Positions 112-25,812 of a stretch of 64,000 bases of DNA are shown one piece after another. The DNA is from Sphaerolaimus hirsutus (Eukaryota > Nematoda > Chromadorea > Monhysterida > Sphaerolaimidae). The translations under genes were made by a program, and so were the position numbers. The stretch covers positions 23,571,785-23,635,784 of the forward strand of contig OZ038452.1 in NCBI GenBank assembly GCA_964036195.1, read 5' to 3'. Below the pieces are notes generated by a model. The model worked only from the letters and a program-made list of their open reading frames with translations, had not been told where the DNA came from and searched no databases. Positions within the stretch are counted from its first letter, which is position 1. Each line of letters starts with the position of its first letter.

Positions 112-345
112 TTTGACGTTTTACAGGGCATTTTACAGGGTCTAGGACAGTGAGTGCCCCCAGCTAAGTCCAGGTGCCACTCGCATACCCTGGAAAAAGC
201 CCTGTAAAATGTAAAATGTCATTCAAGGTGTCGAAAGTCATGGAACCGAGTTGCCATTTTGCAGGGCATTTTCCATGACTTTTCACACTTTGCATGACAT
301 TTTACATTTTAAGGGGCATTTTACAGGGTCTGTGAGTGCCCCCTG
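112..345. repeat. CTGTAAAATG-family copies
   Basis: A right-end fragment (ACGTTTTACAGGGC to GAGTGCCCCC, about 112-162) is followed by a fuller palindrome (about 169-343) whose arms meet near 245. Words CATTTTACAGGG, CATGACTTTTGACACTTTG. Confidence 0.6.
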
Positions 346-6640: not shown

Positions 6641-9600
6641 ATGGATTTCCCAACTACAAGAACATTCTCCACTACAATTTTAACAATCCTAACACTACCC
6701 AATTTTATCAGAGCGGTCCCTATTGACAACGGAGTGGTACAGGGCAGACCGGAAATCGAATGTGCAGCCAAATCTATTTTGATCAATTTTAACACTCAGA
6801 ATAATTTCGAGGGACACGTTTATGTGAAGGTAAACTTCATTTTGAATAACTTTTTTCGAAAAACGGATGGTCAAGGCCTTCGTGCGTTTTAGGAAGAGAA
6901 AACTAGGTGGCGGACCCGACCCCTGTAAAGTTTAAGTAAAGTCATGTGTCAGATGTCATGTAAAATGTTGTACACATTTGTCAAAAGTCATGCAAAATAT
7001 CAAAGGTTCTGGAAATTTACCTAGATATCATTTACCGTTTCCTCTTAAAAAATGACCCAAAATTTATTCTATTTATTCATTCCCATCTATCTTTGCTTGC
7101 ACCCAATTAGGGTGGGGGTATTTCAAGGGGGTCTTTTATTTTCCTTAGCTTGCTCAGACGTGAGGTTTTTTTTCGAGGGGGTTGAGTTCAAGGATGATTA
7201 ATCAAAGAAACTCGGTATTATATTTCTTCCATCATTCATTAATTTCCTTAACTTTCTCACGTGACCTTAATCATCAAAATATGGTAGCACCCTCTGTAAA
7301 GCAGAGTTGTGCAAATACTGGTATTTTTGGAAAAGGTAAACGTAAACGTAAATACCTTTTCCAAATCAAAAGTATAAATACTAAAACGTAAGGTATTTTT
7401 AAAATACCAAGGAATACGTAAAAAGAAACGTAAACATAAAATTTTTACTTACACACAGTATTTGCCATTGTGCTTTGGAAAATACCATTATTTTCACCTT
7501 TAGATGGGTAAATCGCTCCATCTGCACCACTTTCTGTTTTAAGTGTGGCGAAATCCAACTACGCTGGTGATTCTAGGGGAGTCCCAGACCCTGTAAAATG
7601 CCTTGAAAATGTCAAATGACATGCAAAGTGTCTAAAGTCATGCAAAATGCCCTGGAAGGTGGCAAATCTTTGCCATTTTGCTGAGCATTTTACATAAGTT
7701 TTGACATTTGCATGAAATTTTACATTTTACAGGGCATCTTACAGAGTCTGGGATTGGCACCAGAGCTTGCACTCGCCCTGCCAGTTTCAAAACGTGTGCT
7801 TTGCACAGTTGTTGCAAGTGTGTCGTCAGAATTCATCACAAAAAAATTATAACGACAAGGCTACACAAACAAACAAAAAGTGTTCAGCATTTGAACACAT
7901 TTATGAATATCTACCCAGTATTCCATGTGTAAGTGCAAGCGTGCAGTCACTTTTTACGTTTATGTTAAATATTTACGTTTATGCAAAAACACAAGAATAT
8001 TGTTGGCTGCAGGTTGTGCGGCCTATTTGAACATGTGCATGTGTGAATGATCAAAAGTTTTTTTACGTTTTCCCCAGTACCCGGGTATTTTGGTGAGGAA
8101 AACGTAACAAAACGTAATGGTATTTTTGGAAAACGTAAACGTAAGTATAAATACCCGAATGACCGGGTATTTTGGGTAAACGTAAATACGTTTTTCCAAC
8201 TCTGCTGTAAAGCATACGGTCTTATCAGTGTACTCAGAATTACTCATCTGCAAAAGGGGCTCCACATAAAACTGCTATGGGGCTAGCTACTCTGTGAAAT
8301 TTCATGCAGAACAAAAAATGTACTGTATATCCTCGAATAAGTCCCATCCATCTCACTTCTCCCTTTAAATAAGTCCCCCCTCTTGCGAGCGTAAGGAAAA
8401 AGCTCCTCCCCCTCGAGTAACTCCCCCCATCCCACCCCCTTTTCATGGGTAGGAAACATTTCACAACATTTCACATTTACAAAATACGTTTACCGTATTT
8501 CTTCGATCATATTGACCGCCAATGTATTGTTCCATAAGCGGTTTTGGGGGGTCAATGTAATCGAGCACGGCAATGTAAACGAGCACGGCAATATATTTTT
8601 CAGATCGTATTCATGATTTAAGTGCAATTAGTGACATAAGTGCATGTCATTGTCATTTTGTGACATAACGCTGATCAATACCGTATGAGTAGATAGCGAA
8701 AGCAAAACATAGGCAGAACAGACGGTGTGCATATGTAAATATGGCGGCGAACATCAAAACATAAATCGGATCATGCAACATCAATTTTTTTCATACGGCA
8801 ATGTATTCGAGCACGGCGATGTATTTTTCAGATGCTTGATAGACCCGCCAAAGTAATCGAGCAAGCCAATGTGAATGAACACGTCAATAAGATCGAAGAA
8901 ATACAGTATTTTATTTATTATGTAAATACCGTATTTCCTCGAAATACCGCCCGGGGGTGATTGTTTCATAGTGTTCCCTTTAGACTCAATCTGGGGGGGT
9001 ATTTCGAGGGGGGGGGGGTGATTGTTTCATAGTGCTCTCGAGAGGGGGGGGTCAAACGGGGGGGGGGGGGGTATTTCGAGGAAATACGGTATATGTGTTA
9101 TCTTGCAGTTAGAGTTCACTAACAACGATTTCACTGCTTGAATTGTGGTTATTGTATTCCTACAGATGATTCACGTTACCAAATTTACCCCTTTGTGCAG
9201 TAAATTGATCATACATTTTTACTGAAAATTATGACGAAAAAAGAACTCCCCCCTCGAATTACTCCCCTCAAAAAATTCTGGCGAAAACAACTCCACGGAG
9301 GACTTATTCGAGGATATACGGTAACACTAAATTTATCAAGTGACTTTTATAATGTAAAATCTCCACAAAAATTCCGAAAAAGCCATTCCCAGACCCCGCA
9401 AAGTTCCATGTAAAATGTTAAACATCATGCAAAGTGCTAAAAATTACGTAAAATGCCATGAAAAATATCAAATGTCCATTAAATTTTATTTTCGCACTAC
9501 CCATACCTATGGGGCATTTTACATGACTTTTGACACTTTGCATGACATTTGACTTCTAACAGGGCACTTTACATGGTCTGGGAGTGGGACCCGATCCCCA

Positions 9601-12600
9601 AACCGCACTTCCCTCTACCAACCCCCCCCCCCCTTCAAAGGGTCGCTACGAAGAGCCCGGCTGCCGCACGGACGCCACCGGCCGCAGCACAGCCAGCATC
9701 GAATTGCCATTCAGCGATTGCGGCGTCTCCAGACAGAGGACAACCGAGCCCAGGTGCCAATCCCGGACCCTGTAAAATGCACTGGAAAATGTCAGATGTC
9801 ATGTTAAGTGTTAAAAGTTATGTGAAATGCCCTGGAAAATGGCAAACGTATTTACGTTTGCCATTTTCCAGGGTATTTTACATAAATTTTGACACTTTGC
9901 CTGACACTTGACATTTTACAGGGCATCTTACAGGGTCCGGGATTGCCCCCAGGGGTGTCTTTGTCAATGCGATCGTGGTGATAAGCTTCCACCCATATTT
10001 CCTGACCAAAGTTGATCGGGCTTATCACATTCAGTGCTTTTATATGGAGGCTGATAAGACTGTCAGTACAGAGGTAGAGGTCAGGTCTGTGGGGGGTGGG
10101 GGGAATTTCGAATTTTGTGCAGAAGCACTTCCAAAAGAATGAATTAAATTAAAAAATGTCGCTGTTTCTCCCGAAAATTCCAATCATTCACAGGTAGGTG
10201 TTTACACTTGTACACAAGATCCTGATATATTCAATCTGAACCTAAGGCGCATGTGGGGCACCTTACGTGGCGCCTCACGCCCTAATTAAACCCAGGCGTT
10301 GAACTTTACCCCCTACCAAATCGCAGCATGATAACAACTGCATTGAGAACGCAAAACATCCCCATGCCCGTGTGCCGGTACGAAATCAGAGACGGCACCG
10401 CGGAGGGGGAAATCGTGGAGTATGCGATTATCGGCCAAAAAGTGTACCACAAATGGACTTGCGATTCGGAAACTTGTCAGTTTTTGTTTGTTTGTTCTTG
10501 GGGTAAAAGCTCGTTTCAACGAGCAAATGTCAATTATCTGCATTTTTGGAATTTTGGATTTATCGACCTTTAGAAGTTTATCGACTTATCGACTCAAATA
10601 TATAAAAACTCGCAGTCGACACGTTCTGCATGCGCGTCTACGGCTGTTACGTCGATGATGGCAGAGGCGACAGAATGGATTTACTCGATGAACAGGGCTG
10701 CGCCATTGACAAATACCTGTTGAACAATTTAGAGTGGGCTTAGTGGGGTATTTATCAGGGTATTTTTCTGGTATTTCTTTTGAAGGTCTCGGGGATTTTA
10801 AGTGAGATTGAAATGCAAAGCGTAAAGTTCTGGAAGAATAAATTTCACTTTTGTGGATGCCCGTACTTAAACAGCCTGAGCAGCCAGTGAACAATAATTA
10901 CCCGTGAAATCTACCCAATTGTTCTAGGCTTTTTGCAGGATTCAGGGTTTTGTGACATCGATGGTAAGTTTGATCTGGGTACCGTATTTCTTCTAATAGA
11001 AGAGCGCCGTTCTATATTTTTCACCAATTTTTCACTTTTTTTTCATCTGAACATACTTAGGTAGTTTTATTTTTTAATAAAACTTGGAACACTATTTTTA
11101 TTTCAGAACATTTATTTGAAATTTAATATCTACGGTATTTAAATACTTTGACTATTCTCACCGTCCATGTTTGAATATTTTTGTGTTTTGGCACTCTTCC
11201 AACGCAATTTCTACCGGTCGATCTGTTGGACACTGCCGTTCAATTGAAGTGTGCCCTTCAGTTATTTTCGCGAGCGCAAAAACTTGCCAAAACCTGCCTT
11301 TCTATTGGAGGTGCCCTTCTATTGGAGTATTCCATTCTATTAGCAGAGTTACGGTATGTACCTATAGTTCGTGAAAAATAAAGACAGAAAACTAACGAAT
11401 TGTCGACTAACAGATGTTTGTAAGATTTCCGTGTGTTCAGTGTACAATCAATTGAAATCTTACCGGGCGCGGGACAGACCCCCGTCCTCCATTCACATCC
11501 AATGTCCCAACCTTTTTGTTACAGTTACCTGTCCAACTTGATGGCGGGCCAGGAAGTGCACGTGTTCAAGTACGCCGACCGGCCGCAGCTCTACTTCCAG
11601 TGCCAGATCGAGATTCTAGTCAAGGTCTCACTTGTTTCCCTCACTAATATTGAATTTGACTCACTCCAGCGACTTGATTCAATGCACGCGCAGTTAGGTA
11701 CTTATGCCTTAGGTTGGCAATGTGCCAAGGAAAACCAATGCATGCTAAAACTCGAGCCTGTGCCTCTCCGAATGTATACCCGCCCCGAATGTAGACCCGC
11801 ACCGCATGGAAGCATACCCGCTCCGAAGGTAAGCCCGGCCCGAAGGTAACTGACACTACCTGCGGGCCGGGCTTACCTTCGGAGCGGGTATGCTTCCATG
11901 CGGTGCGGGTCTACATTCGGGGAGGGTATACATTCGGAATAGGCCTGGGTCCTAAAACTCATGGTTGTTGAAACATAAATATATTTACCTAAACCTCAGC
12001 TGAGATTTCTTCCATTGTTTTACGGGATGCGCATGCATTTATTTTTTGGCTAGCTGACCAAGGCCGCACACTAGTTGTTGACCACCGTATTTCCGCGAAA
12101 CCCCCCCCCTCGAAATACCCCCCTCAATATGGGCACTATGAATTTGTGGTCCGGGAAATGCATAACAGACGTTCAAAACACTTTGTGACGTTAGAACATC
12201 GTTTATACCATCTACATCCTTATATAAATAATGCTGTAAAAACTTATAAATGGTGGTTATTGTTGCATTTTTCACGTTTGTTCTCTCAAAATTTTCACTC
12301 TGTAAAAATAAACCCCCCGGGAGGTAATTCGAGGAAATACGGCAGTTGAATATTAAAAATTTAGAAGTTGAGGCTAGCGCTGAAGCAAAAAGTGCCATGG
12401 CGCTCTTGGTGCTTGAATGGTGCCATTTACTGTGGCGCTAGCTAGGGCTGGGAATTTCAAAATTTTCGGTTTCAGCTATTGGGTAACGTTTCCAAAAAAG
12501 TTTGGGTTGAGTATCGAATATCGGCTCAAAATTTTTGCGGGGATTGAGTTCGGGTATTGAAGTCGGGTTTCGGTTCCAAAAATGTGCGGGTATCGGTTTC

Positions 12601-16849: not shown

Positions 16850-17312
16850 AATTGCTCTTATGCTGCGATTACAGCTCGGGCGTAAAATTGACCAGCGTAA
16901 CATTGATTTTTGGGCATAAAATTAATTACAGGTGAGTGGATAAAGGGTATGGCATTGTAATTTCAGTCAAAGAAAGCGCACATGCAGATGTTGCTTGTGT
17001 CCAAAGCTCATCAGTTTATTTTAATTGCACTAGAAGTTATGAATTTTGGCTCAAATTTCTTTTAATTTTATGCCCTAATTTTACGCCACTTACAGCGCAT
17101 AATTGAAAAAATTGTGCTAAAATTCATAACTCCCAGTACGATTAAAATAAACTCATGAGCTTTGGACACAAGAAACGTCTGCATCTAAGCTTTCTTTGAC
17201 TGAAATAACAATGTCGTATCTTTATCCATTCATCTGTAATTAATTTTACGCCCAAAATCAATTTTAGGCCGTGTCAATTTTACGCCGGAGCTGTAATCGC
17301 AGCATAATGGTA
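16850..17312. repeat. Large imperfect hairpin of about 460 bases
   Basis: Left arm TTATGCTGCGATTACAGCTC is repeated inverted as GAGCTGTAATCGCAGCATAA at the right; AAATTGACCAGCG and TTTTGGGCATAAAATTAATTAC also have partners. The arms meet near 17085. No coding frame is shared by the arms. Confidence 0.75.
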
Positions 17313-18967: not shown

Positions 18968-19247
18968 TAGTGATGTGACAAGCGCCAGAACTTTGGCGCC
19001 GAGCGCCAAAAGCTCCATGGCGCTTTTCCGACCCCTAGCGCCAAGCGCCAATGGCGCCAAGGGCCAGAAGCGCCGTGGCGCTTTTTGCTTTGGCGCTAGC
19101 GCCAAGCGCCTACGCCAGGCATTTTGTTCTTGGCGCCGGTCAAAAGTAGCGCCAAGCGCCAAAAGTGCCGTGGCGCTTTTCATGGGCATGGCACCACAGC
19201 TAAATAGCGCCAAGCTTCAAAAGCGCCATGCCGATATTACATCACTG
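18968..19247. mobile_element. hAT-like element, TAGTGATG termini, GCGCC words
   Basis: Inverted ends TAGTGATGTGA / TTACATCACTG; flanks GTCCTGAT (18960-18967) and GTCCCGAT (19248-19255), one mismatch. The interior is built of GGCGCCAAGCGCC and GCGCCATGGCGC-type palindromic words. Confidence 0.75.
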
Positions 19248-19413
19248 GTCCCGATTGTCAGTGCGAGCTCACATAAATAGCAAGGGAAGTGGAAATCACT
19301 GAGCACAGGGTGTGCGCTTTATTAACATTGCACAGTTGAGGAATTTGCACTGAAGATTTGCACTGTAAATACGTAAATACAAGTACACATTTTACGTATT
19401 TACACCCTTTCAG

Positions 19414-22400
19414 GAAATCGCGGAAACAGAGGATCTGCGACCAAATCTGGTAAAGCTGCTCAGGGATGTGGACTCGTGTCGAATTTACTGCTGCTATTAT
19501 GATGTTCCAGGTAAATACAATACTTGTTCACAAGTTTGATCACTTTAATTACCTATATACAGAGACATCGGTGGGGCTTGTAAATTTTTCTCGTGCTAAA
19601 TAAATGGAGAAAGTGCAACAAGCGATATGGGGTGCAATAGAAAGTGTGAAAGAAGTCGATCCTGGCGCAGTGCCGTTTCAGGCTTTCATGTGTCACGTTT
19701 TACTGCCTTTTGACGCTTTCAATTTTTGCCAACAACATTTTTAAATTAATTCTGTGCACTGATTATATTAGGTATACATATTTATGGTAAAAAATTCAAT
19801 TTATTTCATACTTCACGAAAACGATCAAAACTGAACTCACCTCACATCACGACCATTCACAACATCCCCCACTGATGTCAGCAGAAATATACCCCTCACT
19901 AGTGATGGAAAAGCGCCATGGCGCTTCTGGCGCTTGGCGCCGGGGTTTTGAAAAGCGCCATGATGCTATTGGCGCCATTTTTGTGTGGCGCCAGGAAAAA
20001 AACGCATGGCGCTGGCGCTTGGCGCCATTTTGTTTGGGCGCCATCGGCGTTTGGCGCTAGGGTACGGAAAAGCGCCATGGCGCTTTTCCCATCACTACCC
20101 CCTCGCCCCCACACACCATGTTGACCAGATTCAAAATAGGTACCTAATCACACTTTTGAACCTCTCCAAGGAGGTTGCAACGCGGTAACCTACCACGAAA
20201 GGCCGGACTGGCGCTGCAAAATGTATTTTTGCCCCAGCAAAGAAACCTGCCGCTCACAACTCAAATTTACAACCAACAAAACAGTGTCGTTTCTATTGTA
20301 TTTTCCACAAAATGACACTGATAATGGCAATGGGAAGCAAAGGGATGATTTTCAGGGTAATGTTGCGAAAAATGGACTAGGGAAACAGATAAAGGGGGAA
20401 ATGAAAGGTGGTACGGATAAGGATGATATTGTTGTTAAAAGGAGACATCGCGATCAAAACAAGTGGGACTGGTACCAGGTGAGATTTCTATTTAGGTTGG
20501 AAGGTTGCCAATTTCAGAAGTTGTATAAAACACCTGGGTGGACAAAGTAACAAATGCGCAGAATCCTACAACAATTTTATAAAGAATGTTATATACCGTA
20601 TTACCTGGAATTATCCCCCCCCCTTGAATTAACCCCCCCCCTCGAATTAACCCCCCCTCAAAATGGGCTGGGGAAATACTAACCCCCCCTCGAAATCCCC
20701 CCCCTTTCGGAACGATGTACGTCATGTACATAATAAATACGTCATGTATGCAATGTACATGATGTATTAGGGTGTAAACTAAGTTTCTTATCTTTTTTGC
20801 GATCTCATACAAATATACATTTCTGCGTTCCATTCTGTTGTACGTTGGCCGATTTTGAAGCCCTTCGAGTATGTTGGGGTTTGGGGTCTGGGCTATGACG
20901 AATTTGTTTTGTTTCCTTGAATAATCCCCCAGTCCCGAGATAAGGGGGGTCTAAAAGGTGGTCATTTTCCATGGCCGATGTGAACACTGACATTTGAACC
21001 TTGATAAATCCTCCATTTATGGGCCGATTTTATTCATTCAACACTTAAAATGATCAAGACGATTTGTAGATTCCATTTGTAGTTTTGTGGTTGGATAAGT
21101 GATGTCTATACTCCATGTGCCAATAAACTTAACACTTAAAGTTAAAAGTGCTATAACTTTTGATTGGAAAACGATATTGAAATTTGTTTCGGCCAGATGA
21201 ATTGTTTTAGTCTAAGCTATACGATAGCATGTTCAGAAAAAAGTTTTTGCTGTGTTCAAAAACTGGGTCAAATCGGCATACGGAGTTTAAACATCACTAG
21301 TGATGGAATGGCGCCATGGCGCTGGCGCCATTTGAGGGCGCCAAAGGGCGCCGCGCCATGGCGCCATTGGCGCTTGGCGCCCTTTTTCTGTGGCGCCCTT
21401 GGCGCCTGGCGCCCACTTTCTGAAAGGCGCCATGGCGCCCTTGGCGCTTGGCGCCCTTTCTCCGTGGCGCCCTTGGCGCCTGGCGCCCTGCCCTAAAAGG
21501 GCGCCAAAATGGCGCCAGCATGGTTTCAAGGTGAGTGCTGCGTGTATGAATAAAAAAGAAAAAACGGGTCTGTGAATGATCAAAATTCACTGGAAAATAG
21601 ACAAAGTGGTGTGAGTGGATGTATACGTTTCATCCAGTTTTTATCAGATGCGTGTAACGGATCAGAAGCTGAGCATGATAGACCGGTGAACTTGCAAACT
21701 CGTAAATCAACGGATTGAAATTATCGGAATTCCGTTGTCGTCCGTTTCAAGAAAACATAAATTGGAAAATCTATTTGATGTGCATTCATTGTTTTGTCGA
21801 ATGAGAATTTTCAAAGTGTTTGAATTGAATTTCACGTGTGAGTGCGGTTTTTGCACAAAAGTTTGTTGCTAGTCTCATTTTTGCTGATTACATCCTGGAG
21901 AACATGAATAAAGAAGTGAATGTGTGCACTACAGTGCTGGAGAAGCATTTTTAGCACACGCAGGGTATTCTACTCGCTTTTTTATCCTGGCGCCATTGGC
22001 GCCTGGCGCCCTTCTTTTCAATTGGCGCCATGGCGCCCTTGGCGCTTGGCGCCCTCTTTCCGTGGCGCCCTTGGCGCCTGGCGCCCACTTTCCGAATGGC
22101 GCCATGGCGCCCTTTTTCTGTGGCGCCCTTGGCGCTTGGCGCCCAGTTTCCGAATGGCCCTTTTTTCTGGCGCTTTTCCATCACTAAACATCACTAACGT
22201 GACCACAAAACTGAAACCTACAGGTCGTCTCGAACATTATAAGTGTTGAATGAATAAAATTGGCCCAGAAAGGGCCGATTTATCAAGCTTCAAAGGTCAG
22301 TGTCCACATCAGCCATGGAAAATGATTATCTTTTTGTAGACCGTCCTTTTCTCGGGGCTAGGGGATTATTCAAGGAAACAAACATTTTTTGTCATAGCCC

Positions 22401-23816
22401 AGACCCCGAACCCCAACATACTCAAAGGGCTTCAAAATCGGCAAACGTACAACAGAATAGAATGCAGGAATGTATATTTGTATGAGATCGCTAAAAAGAT
22501 AAGAAACTTAGTTTACACCCTAATATATTACTGTTAATTTGCATTGCAGCTACACATAGACTAGTTTGTGTAGCTATCTACGGTTTTATGTCCAAATATA
22601 TACTGTTTGGACTCATTTATTACCTGTTATGGGAAAAAAAATTCAGCCGCCGGAAAACGGAAAACAAGGCCGGAAAACCAGAAACGGAAAAACGAAATTT
22701 GCACGGAAACGAAAAAAAATTGGTGAAATTTTGTCGGATAATGCAAAAAATTGCTGAAATTTGCTGGAAATGGTAAAAATTGCTGAAATTTTGATGGAAA
22801 ATGGAAAAATTAACATAATTGAAAACCTGCATGCATGTTTACCAGTTTGGCCGAAACAGAAAACAGACAGTTGAGCTGGGAAAAGGGAATATGAGGTGGC
22901 AAAATAGAAAATTGAGCCGGAAAATAGAAAAAAGGTGGAAAAACAGAAAATGTAGCCAGAAAACAGAAAAAAGCCAGAAAAACTGAAAATTATGCCGGAA
23001 AACGGAAAATGAGCCGGAAAAACGGAAACAGAAATGGAAAAAAAATTTGTGGCCGGAAAAAGGAACGGAAAAGGGAAAAAAATTCAGCGATCAGAAAACG
23101 GAAAAAATTTGCCTTCGAAAAATGGAAATGGAAAACGGAAATTTGACACCCTAGTTTCCATACTAAGTGTGATGTCCGCCAAGCTTACAGTAACTAGTAA
23201 AATGATTTGTAGTCGTTTATGCTGGTGGTATTGAATATTCACATTGATCAAGTGATAACTGATAAGTGACAAGTATTTTTAACAAGTAAATTAACTGCCA
23301 TATCGTTTACAACTCTCTTAGCTTATAACGCACCACACACTTTCCTCGACTATTCCACTTCAATATTAACACATCAAAAATCATTCACCATTGCAGGATG
23401 AAGAACAGAGCATGCCCTACCAAAGCAGAAATGACACAATTTACATTTTCGGAGATGGCAATTTCCCTCCATCAGAAGCCCTGCAGGCACTCATTTTGGC
23501 AGTGATCATTTTCCTAGACATTGCAGTCATGACTTGTGTAGCATTTTCACTTTTCGTTTGTGTGAGAAATCTGTTTGGAATGTGCTACAGTGAACACAAG
23601 TTTAGTGAAGAAAAAAGTAGCATGGGTGATGTTTGCGTTTCTTTGGTTTGTGTGGTACTTTTTGTTGTTATAGCGTGTGCTACAAATTTTGCGGCCTGGT
23701 TTTTGTTGCAGAAACGTTTGGAAGGTAAGACAAATGTGTAGGGTTCCTTGAGTTTTTAGTTCTATCTTCTATCGTATCTAAATTTTTTTGCAGTTTTTGT
23801 GGCATCAAAAATATAG
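19414..23816 (+). CDS. Unidentified membrane protein, 3' part (4 exons)
   Basis: Four exons join in phase: 19414-19510, 20171-20478, 23397-23724 and 23794-23816 (stop TAG 23814-23816), about 251 residues. The first two encode a Cys-rich, probably extracellular segment (DSCRIYCCYYDVP, then GGGCNAV, DWRCKMYFCPSKETC) with N-glycosylation-type sequons (NKT, NDT). A low-complexity D/G/N/K stretch follows. The third exon has two strongly hydrophobic segments (starting ALQALILAVIIFLDIAVMTC and VCVSLVCVVLFVVIAC) separated by a short loop. The exon starting at 19414 begins in phase 0 with no ATG, so 5' exons lie upstream. A Cys-rich loop followed by a membrane helix recalls auxiliary channel subunits, but I cannot assign a family. 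Confidence 0.65.
19907..20096. mobile_element. TAGTGATGG element, GCGCC words
   Basis: Ends TAGTGATGGAAAAGCGCC and CGCTTTTCCCATCACTA. The flanks are C-rich on both sides (CCCCTCAC, CCCCCTCG) but do not match exactly, so the target duplication is unclear. In the intron before the exon at 20171. Confidence 0.6.
20768..22525. repeat. Long foldback with about 300-base arms
   Basis: The first about 300 bases (from TAGGGTGTAAACTAAGTTTC) return as an imperfect inverted copy ending GAAACTTAGTTTACACCCTA. Shared inner marks include GGCCGATTTTGAAGCCC and AGTGTTGAATGAATAAAAT. The centre is interrupted by the element at 21298-22186. In the large intron of the membrane-protein gene. Confidence 0.7.
21298..22186. 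mobile_element. hAT-like element, TAGTGATGG termini, GCGCC words, 889 bp
   Basis: Exact 8-bp duplication AACATCAC at 21290-21297 and 22187-22194. GCGCC-word arms (21305-21515 and 21985-22175) flank an ordinary AT-rich centre. Nested inside the 20768-22525 foldback. Confidence 0.88.
22630..23153. repeat. GGAAAACGG-word repeat with a TAGGGTGTC-type right end
   Basis: Degenerate GCCGGAAAACGGAAAA words over about 500 bases end with TTTGACACCCTA, the same end as the element at 41303-41492. The left boundary is not clear. Confidence 0.55.
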
Positions 23817-23840
23817 TGTGAAGTCGATAGCAGTCACATG

Positions 23841-24101
23841 TAGTGATGGAAAAGCGCCAGAAAAAAAGGGCGCCAGGCGCCAATGGCGCCATGGCGCCAT
23901 TCGGAAACTGGGCGCCAAGCCCCAAGGGCGCCACAGCAAAAGGGCGCCAGGCGCCAAGGGCTCCATGGCGCCATTCGGAAAGTGGGCTCCAGGGCGCCAA
24001 GGGTGCCACGGAAAGAGGGCGCAAAGCGCCAATGGCGCCATGGCGCGGCGCCCTTTGGCGCCCTCAAATGGCGCCATCGCCATGGCGCCATTCCATCACT
24101 A
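23841..24101. mobile_element. hAT-like element, TAGTGATGG termini, GCGCC words
   Basis: Exact 8-bp duplication GTCACATG at 23833-23840 and 24102-24109. 261 bases, just after the last exon of the membrane-protein gene. Confidence 0.88.
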
Positions 24102-24649
24102 GTCACATGTGGATAAATTACCATGTTTTTTTTCGTTTTTCATACCCGTGTTTATATCCATAGCAAATAGCATTGAAAAAATTTCTGGGAGATTTATATT
24201 GGAGAAATATCAGTAAAAATGAGATTTTTTTAGGTATATTCACATTTATGTCAGGATTTCCAGAGATTTTATAATGTTTTCGTTTTGAAAGATTTTGTAA
24301 GATTCAAAAATATCAGAAATTGTATAGAATATCGCATCTAGGTATATTTATTTATATTTTTCCTGGTATTTGAAGAGTGATTTAATTGTAGTTTATTTTT
24401 AATGAGTCATTTCCCTATAATATTTAACTTATGAGTCCTGAAGTTTATTTCCTTTATTACATTTATTTCTCGTAAATATCCTACTCTACTTTCTATTCTA
24501 AATCTTATCTTAAACCCCATCCAATCACATATTTTACACATGAATACTCTGTTTTGTATTGATTATAAAGTAGATATTTATCTTTGAAAATGACACCACC
24601 ACAATCAATGGAGACTCCTGTGGTGATGGGAAAGCGCCATGGTGCTGGC

Positions 24650-25812
24650 CAGAGTTGTTAAAAGGTACGTACGTTTACTCGAAAAATACGCGTAAGCGAG
24701 TACGCGGTAAATATGTTTACATATACTTTTAAAAAAAGTAACGTACTCACATGTACGCGTACATTTTTGAGGCATACGCGTAAAGAAAATGTATTTCTGT
24801 GAATTCAATTTGGCACATATTTATAAGGTGACTACGCTGCAATTGACTATATTTCCTCGAAATACCCCTGGGTAGTGATGCGAAAAGCGCCAGAACTTTG
24901 GCGCCAAGCGCCAAAAGCGCCATGGCGCTTTTCCGACCCTTAGCGCCAAGCGCCAATGGCGCCAGAGCAAAATGGCGCCAAGCGCCAGAAGCGCCATGGC
25001 GCTTTTTGCTTTGGCGCTAGCGCCAAGCGCCAGCGCCAGGCATTTTGTTCCTGGCGCCAGCCAAAAATAGCGCCAAGCACCAAAAGTGCCATGGCGCTTT
25101 TCATAGGCATGGCGCCAAGCGCCAATGGCGCCACAGGAAAATAGCGCCAAGCGCCAAAAGCGCCACGGCGCTTTTTGCTTTGGCGCTAGCGCCAGGCGCC
25201 AGCGCCATGGCGCTTTTACATCACTACCCCTGGGAGTGATTGTTTTATAGTGAAACTTTTGAGGGGAGTTAAACAAGGGCGGGTATTTCGAGGGTTTTTT
25301 TTATTTCGCCAGAATTTTTCAGAACTAATTCGTTCTTTGTAACATACGCTGAGGTAGAAAAATGCAACAACAAGCTCCATGTATAAGAGTATTTTTATTG
25401 ACTTACATATATATTCATGTAAATATAGATGGTATATACTCTGTTCTAACGTGACTTGGTCATTGTTTAAACATGTGTTCTGCATTTCACAGAACACATA
25501 CTGAAGTTTTTAATATTTACGTTCCATTTAAGTTCAATTTGGGGGGGGGGGCTTTCGACAGGGGGTCAATTATTCAATTCGTAGGGCCATTTTGAAGGTT
25601 GTATTTCAAAAACGTACCCAGTTCTACATATTCTATGAAGAAAAGTGCTCGCTTTTGCATTTTAATGGGAAAAAAATTTTGTACTCACATTTACGCGTGC
25701 GTACGAGTAAAAAATAAATATTTTACATTTTCGATACTTTGTGGTGAGTAAAAAATAAATACTTTACATTTACATATACTTTTAAAAAAGTTCAGTAATT
25801 CTAACAACTCTG
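24650..25812. mobile_element. hAT-like element, CAGAGTTG termini, hosting two nested insertions
   Basis: Exact 8-bp duplication GTGCTGGC at 24642-24649 and 25813-25820. The ends carry ACGTACGTTTACTCG-type words. Inside are a TTTCCTCGAAATACCCC foldback and, within that, the element at 24873-25226. The whole sits in a GCGCC-word element (about 24621-25906). Confidence 0.85.
24873..25226. mobile_element. hAT-like element, TAGTGATG termini, GCGCC words
   Basis: Exact 8-bp duplication CCCCTGGG at 24865-24872 and 25227-25234, lying in the foldback's CCCC tract. Innermost layer of the nest. A 151-codon frame on the minus strand is only GCGCC words. Confidence 0.88.

Follow-up and report, generated by a model that had tools for sequence, protein, structure and literature searches.

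Introners have been found in only two animal groups among 3,325 eukaryotic genomes, the named examples being algae, protists and fungi (PMC9860276, available portion), and 'nematod' is absent from the main text of that survey. None of 168 introns gained in ten Caenorhabditis species had a source sequence in the available part of that study (PMC9169325), and the accessible portions of papers on tunicate splicing (PMC13326754) and on a gammarid (PMC10597677) report no nematode introners; our searches of the open-licence literature turned up no such case for nematodes. Here we analyze a 64,000-nt stretch of contig OZ038452.1 of the nematode Sphaerolaimus hirsutus (the window; positions are counted from its first letter), in which a cuticlin gene carries a putative intron at 9754-9952 that coincides with one copy of a hairpin-forming, terminal inverted repeat (TIR) transposon of the miniature inverted-repeat transposable element (MITE) type. 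Judging from the DNA and the reading frame, we consider it very likely (probability of about 0.92) that this transposon acts as an introner, inserting into exons and being spliced out of them.

The family shares traits with several described systems, each compared here through the available portions of the cited papers. The introners surveyed in PMC9860276 are likewise non-autonomous, many have inverted repeats and target duplications, and their insertion into exons makes introns; in some of those families, too, the duplication provides one splice site, and mRNA length is mostly unchanged. The present family differs in that its duplication is a 3-bp CWG, whose variable letter would set a final AG or TG. 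Introner elements of Amoebophrya (PMC7789003) also have inverted repeats, whose predicted hairpins would draw the exon boundaries together, 3-5 nt direct repeats at the exon-intron boundary and unusual splice sites, whereas our case concerns one uniform family in a genome whose ordinary cuticlin introns had a final AG in all 14 cases judged by eye (one more paralogue was ambiguous). GT-TG ends are known from the Micromonas introners IE-B and IE-D (PMC3879977), but these have 25 and 6 members, some IE-B of up to 6,494 nt, and a phase-2 preference; the present family is a ~192-bp MITE with more than 1,000 ends that would yield both GT-AG and GT-TG introns from one element. TG 3' splice sites also occur in human U2 introns (PMC2374985), there only as alternatives to AG, whereas 7 of 12 copies flanked by CTG on both sides here have no frame-keeping AG near the end. 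The family is a probable introner variant that we did not find reported in nematodes, without being a proven first.

In the cuticlin gene, the original prediction held up: a single transposon copy has ends that coincide with the splice sites of the putative intron. The sequence reads ...GAGCCCAG^GTGCCAATCCC...GGGATTGCCCCCAG^GGGTGTC, with carets at the putative splice points (an alternative excerpt of the same ends is ...GAGCCCAG^GTGCCAATCCCGGACCCTGTAAAATG...CATCTTACAGGGTCCGGGATTGCCCCCAG^GGGTGTC). The predicted coordinates, 9754-9952, were correct for the intron: it comprises a gene-sense element copy of 196 bp (9754-9949, forward strand, GTGCCA...TGCCCC), which provides the 5' GT, and the right copy of a duplicated CAG target (9950-9952), which gives the 3' AG and would leave with the intron. 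The left CAG (9751-9753) would be retained in the exon. A flanking direct repeat had been rightly anticipated, but as AGG; it is CAG, the left G of the supposed AGG being the first base of the element and the right G an exon base. The resulting candidate intron has 199 nt, lies in phase 2 and has the GT...AG ends of a canonical U2 intron, and the inverted-repeat arms, at 9749-9850 and 9853-9954, show 85% complementarity to each other. Excising it restores GAG CCC AGG GGT GTC, as foreseen, with an unbroken reading frame, and the Pfam domain CUT_N (cuticlin N-terminal domain) runs continuously across the junction (E 5e-20 with a machine translation, 5e-21 with a hand-typed peptide). The gene spans ~6743-11626 on the forward strand. 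It includes the exons on either side of the intron, 9640-9753 (start approximate, by eye) and 9953-10084 (GVFVNAIVVISFHP..., end placed by eye at CAG^GTCTG), and a match to CUT_N positions 1-39 at 6743-6859 (C3:23578527-23578643) that we take as an upstream exon; hand-typed peptides from farther downstream match CUT_C.

The element belongs to a large family. A search of the 348-Mb genome with window positions 9700-10000 gave 4,181 candidates, 40 of them scored. A 30-base left-end pattern including CCAGG had 494 exact matches, the left end preceded by CNG had 1,572 and the right end followed by CNG had 1,089, with 0 matches to the reversed control in each case. From 88 loci we delimited 102 distinct copies and kept 93, excluding nine with poor ends before any counts were made. 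Forty-six near-full-length copies give a consensus of 192 bp that starts with GTGCCA and finishes with TGCCCC; divergence has a median of 7% and a minimum of 2.1%, the cuticlin-intron copy standing at 9.9%. The active intron creation suggested in the original prediction is conjectural. Some copies (L011, L017, L042, L062 and others) have 300-430 bp between their ends, against the usual ~192, possibly through nested or duplicated arms.

The flanking triplets carry the mark of the insertion target. In 66 copies drawn with no condition set on the target, although partly from a query with CAG ends that may favor CAG, the left/right triplets were CAG/CAG in 21, CTG/CTG in 11, CTG/CAG in 10, CAG/CTG in 1 and other combinations in 23. 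The two ends are associated among the 43 CWG/CWG pairs (21, 1, 10 and 11; Fisher P 0.0006), as a 3-bp duplication of CWG would leave them. Another 27 copies, chosen for a left CCAGG, had CAG at the right end in 22 cases, CTG in 1 and another triplet in 4. The short length, inverted repeats and high copy number of a MITE (192-bp consensus, 85% palindrome, 1,572 left ends) are all present, together with a target-site duplication of fixed length, and by these sequence characters the family is best described as a CWG-targeting TIR transposon of the MITE type, ~192 bp long and putatively folding into a hairpin.

Copies elsewhere in the genome support the proposed introner mechanism, in which the target duplication provides a splice site. 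For each of the 93 copies, a script deleted the element plus one triplet and collected the open reading frames (ORFs) over the junction (at least 45 aa, no more than two per strand), which were strung together at about 12 per query, with ten queries per strand; the E-values and cut-offs of this Pfam scan hold for the strung queries and not for single ORFs. The sense strand contributed 117 ORFs from 87 copies and the antisense strand 105 ORFs from 86. Sense ORFs matched Pfam families above the curated cut-off for 11 of the 93 copies, whereas the antisense ORFs matched none, even at E 0.5 (binomial P 0.001), and no antisense copy was recognized in a conserved domain among the 93 sampled. The sense matches extend across the junction for CUT_N (copy L001), 7tm_1 (L003, L072), Carn_acyltransf (L033), Ion_trans_2 (L045, a K2P channel), ANF_receptor (L046), RCC1 (L061) and Pkinase (L076 and L079, the kinase of L079 being taken from a further stretch in the row of L076 and corroborated by a single-protein scan); they also include Homeodomain (L037) and Calpain_III (L030), which lies on one side of the junction only, with a sub-threshold Peptidase_C2 on the other. 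Ten further copies besides that in the cuticlin gene thus interrupt or adjoin conserved domains in the same orientation, and the genome-wide search that the original prediction had proposed did recover flush copies in unrelated genes, with similarity reaching both splice boundaries as in known introners.

Ten joined proteins, each with its junction after residue 50, were also scanned one by one. A homeodomain at residues 40-96 had all 57 positions covered across the junction, and matches likewise crossed it for Pkinase (1-100), 7tm_1 (19-84 and 30-96) and TSP_1 (45-88); at the junction edge, a FAT4-like cadherin domain stops at 49 and a PDZ domain begins at 50. The other cadherin match, at E 0.07, was weak. 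We take the AbdB-like homeodomain of this genome to differ from that of C. elegans. Copies L037 and L070 have one additional base before the right CAG, and a cut at that AG restores the domain. No meaningful Pfam family was found for copies L039 and L052 in the single-protein scans or for L082 in the strung-ORF scan, and these were kept out of the 11, although by eye the exons around all three look conserved. Weak hits to Vinculin (L005), cadherin (L022), PDZ and peroxidase, along with chance names, were excluded as well. A codon-usage score trained on 13 exons, with leave-one-out, called 24 of the 93 copies sense-coding. Some genes appear to hold more than one copy: a GPCR-like locus around L072 (G000:C6:11036139-11039935) has three within 1.9 kb, with targets CAG/CTG, CTG/CAG and CTG/CTG, the last of these in TM6; and L022 and L023, both CAG/CAG, lie 1.3 kb apart near 7.36 Mb on contig C1, apparently in one cadherin gene, one with a firm cadherin match and the other with a weak one.

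Paralogues provide empty sites. In a DNA search, the joined cuticlin exons aligned with the two nearest paralogues over query positions 36-216 (181 bases on 181, 74% identical), ungapped within 80 columns of the junction, where GAGCCCAG^GGGT faces GAGCCCAA^GGGC. For the G protein-coupled receptor (GPCR) copy L003, which is CTG/CTG, the match of the gene to itself falls into two parts (1-34 and 31-63) and all seven other matches span the junction; the nearest of them pairs 63 codons with 189 bases and is ungapped, 128 of 192 bases being identical. Empty sites, as insertion into an exon would predict, are thus seen in paralogues of both the cuticlin gene and GPCR L003. For the K2P copy L045, a hand count found 37 of 45 non-self matches continuing at least 6 residues beyond the junction. 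The cuticlin family itself is greatly expanded, with 129 CUT_N matches in the genome, several clustered on contig C7, and 0 in each of 14 control genomes; Col_cuticle_N (the nematode cuticle-collagen N-terminal domain) gave 56 matches and again 0 in all 14, and both results indicate a nematode or something closely related. Of the CUT_N matches, 34 read by eye as stop-free from profile position 60 or earlier to 85 or later, and many others break around profile position 70. Where the splice point could be read exactly, in paralogues L089, L093, L095 and L099, a phase-0 intron interrupts the gene 11 nt upstream of the cuticlin-intron position. Paralogue L096 has a ~500-bp intron 1 nt downstream of the cuticlin-intron position, holding a degenerate antisense element copy that is not flush with the intron. 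An older intron is thus adjacent to the cuticlin site, and one paralogue is interrupted at nearly the identical point, but the nearest relatives are intron-free there.

These data suggest a route from transposition to splicing. Insertion into CWG by a transposase, presumably supplied in trans, would double the three target bases, a duplication visible in the copies. A sense insertion at CAG would produce ...CAG^GTGCCA...TGCCCC CAG^..., and splicing from the GT to the duplicated CAG would remove the element and one target copy, restoring the coding sequence exactly; antisense insertions would be without these splice sites. The palindrome is predicted to fold so that internal TTTTACAG decoys are paired while the terminal GU and AG are largely exposed and near each other. 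Intron 9754-9952 has a predicted fold of a single hairpin (-130 kcal/mol, z -19), and across 37 full copies the mean unpaired probability is 0.99 for the terminal acceptor, 0.73 for the 5' GT and 0.08 for 61 internal AGs. Modeled in this way, folding could hide the TTTTACAG decoy acceptors and bring the true ends together.

The same event at a CTG target would leave GT...TG ends. The product at a CAG target is CAG^GTGCCA...TGCCCCCAG^, with canonical intron ends, and that at a CTG target is CTG^GTGCCA...TGCCCCCTG^. The 11 CTG/CTG copies among the 66 accordingly lack the GT...AG ends that copies with a right CAG have, and CTG/CTG copies occur in three Pfam-verified exons (L003, L072, L079). Mismatched CWG pairs in the 66 are lopsided, CTG-left/CAG-right occurring 10 times and the reverse once (P 0.012), an excess which suggests that acceptors were later corrected to AG under selection; the left CTG encodes leucine in the K2P and RCC1 examples, so it was probably the right triplet that mutated. 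Sixteen end pairs of up to 271 bp, read by eye from lists of the first 100 ends (one ~430-bp candidate omitted), comprised 7 CAG/CAG, 6 CTG/CTG, 2 CTG/CAG, 1 CTG/CGG and 0 CAG/CTG. Pooling the 66 copies, these pairs and the copy at window 174-342 gives 12 CTG/CAG against 2 CAG/CTG (P 0.013), or against 3 once copy L035 is added (P 0.035). A TG end might thus be tolerated at first and mutated to AG later. We tentatively entertain, at somewhat short of even odds, that one transposon family yields both GT-AG and GT-TG introns, the target choosing the last dinucleotide; that folding into a hairpin compels the spliceosome to use the terminal dinucleotide, TG thereby being accepted as the sole acceptor; and that point mutation of TG to AG then records the birth and repair of an intron. 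The possibly younger age of CTG/CTG copies and the further reverse cases weigh somewhat against this proposal.

Several observations weigh against the introner interpretation or parts of it. The junctions, above all GT-TG, are deduced from DNA, and GT-TG ends depart from the usual splice rule; TG is never the sole acceptor in human genes, as far as the available part of PMC2374985 goes. Neither GTGCCA at the 5' site nor the C-rich sequence at the 3' end is a strong splice signal, and the TTTTACAG decoys lie mostly 19 and 31 nt from the element end. The codon-usage score called 3 of the 93 copies antisense-coding. Triplets are equal in only 33 of the 66 copies (shuffled mean 20.8, maximum 34), since either side consists mostly of CAG or CTG. 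Reverse CAG-left/CTG-right cases exist, at the L072 locus in the 66 copies, as L035 in the 27 and at window 174-342, and CTG-left/CAG-right pairs could also come from a change in the exon copy. The first 100 left ends (CAG 50, CTG 40, CGG 7, CCG 3) and right ends (CAG 59, CTG 38, CGG 2, CCG 1), read by eye and all on contig C1, show no significant difference in CAG versus CTG (P 0.55); the case for asymmetry is accordingly drawn from paired ends. CTG/CTG copies may be somewhat younger (n=6, mean divergence 7.1%, median 5.0%) than CAG/CAG copies (n=23, mean 8.7%, or 7.3% without one 39% outlier, median 7.3%), a difference that is not significant (P 0.32). A search of the retrieved loci for right ends lying far from unpaired left ends revealed no convincing longer element as an autonomous partner. 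Finally, the empty sites are in paralogues, hence intron loss there is formally possible.

Other histories could produce some of these patterns. An old intron might have been colonized by the transposon and trimmed until the transposon alone was left; many cuticlin paralogues do break near the site, and L096 has its ~500-bp intron, with a degenerate antisense copy inside, only 1 nt away. We nevertheless find this very improbable, given that the cuticlin intron is flush with the element ends and target duplication, that the four exactly read paralogue introns sit 11 nt upstream in a different phase, that the two nearest paralogues are intron-free and that unrelated genes share the flush architecture. 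Spread through RNA by reverse splicing, proposed for fungal introners in the available part of PMC9860276, would fit the sense orientation in exons, but it is highly unlikely here: RNA propagation predicts neither inverted repeats nor target duplication, both are present, and the 3-bp CWG duplication, the inverted repeats and the antisense copy in the L096 intron are marks of a DNA transposon.

The copies might also not be introns at all. If they were ordinary insertions in broken genes or recent alleles, with no splicing, the lack of an in-frame AG near the end in most CTG/CTG copies and their perhaps slightly lower divergence (medians of 5.0% versus 7.3%, not significant) would be expected; we rate this as low as the old-intron history, since it gives no reason for sense-only copies in conserved domains, and the domains restored by excision otherwise match well. 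Programmed DNA elimination in the soma, leaving genes intact in expressing cells, would suit elements precisely bounded by duplications and account for tolerated CTG/CTG copies, yet it should act in both orientations, while only sense copies were recognized in conserved domains, and we consider it the least credible of these accounts. An explanation confined to the CTG/CTG copies deserves more weight, though it too is unlikely: they could be spliced GT-AG at an internal AG, adding codons and leaving TG unused. Among 12 such copies, including one with a poor end, four (L039, L043, L062, L072) have an AG 9 nt from the end, whose use would lengthen the product by three codons; an AG at 30 nt occurs in L055 and L062. 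In the remaining seven (L003, L007, L042, L052, L078, L079, L082), no AG in the last 60 nt stands at a distance divisible by three, and an internal AG would shift their frame.

The window contains further copies of the introner candidate: one with CTG/CTG at 1157-1348 and one with left CAG and right CTG at 174-342, both on the forward strand; a degenerate copy at 7575-7760 on the reverse strand; and another degenerate copy, strand unassigned, at 9380-9590, 5' of the cuticlin exon. A separate palindrome at 11767-11938, amid cuticlin exons, has 82-bp arms that are 98% complementary, and another MITE-like element at 16943-17223 has 116-bp arms that are 84% complementary. Numerous GGCGCC-rich repeat units, some direct and some inverted, occupy ~19000-25230.

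The origin of new introns in animals is a long-standing question, and a family of this size gives many target-matched insertions for direct study of splicing, selection and acceptor evolution. The split between CAG and CTG targets in particular constitutes a natural experiment on the tolerance of the spliceosome.
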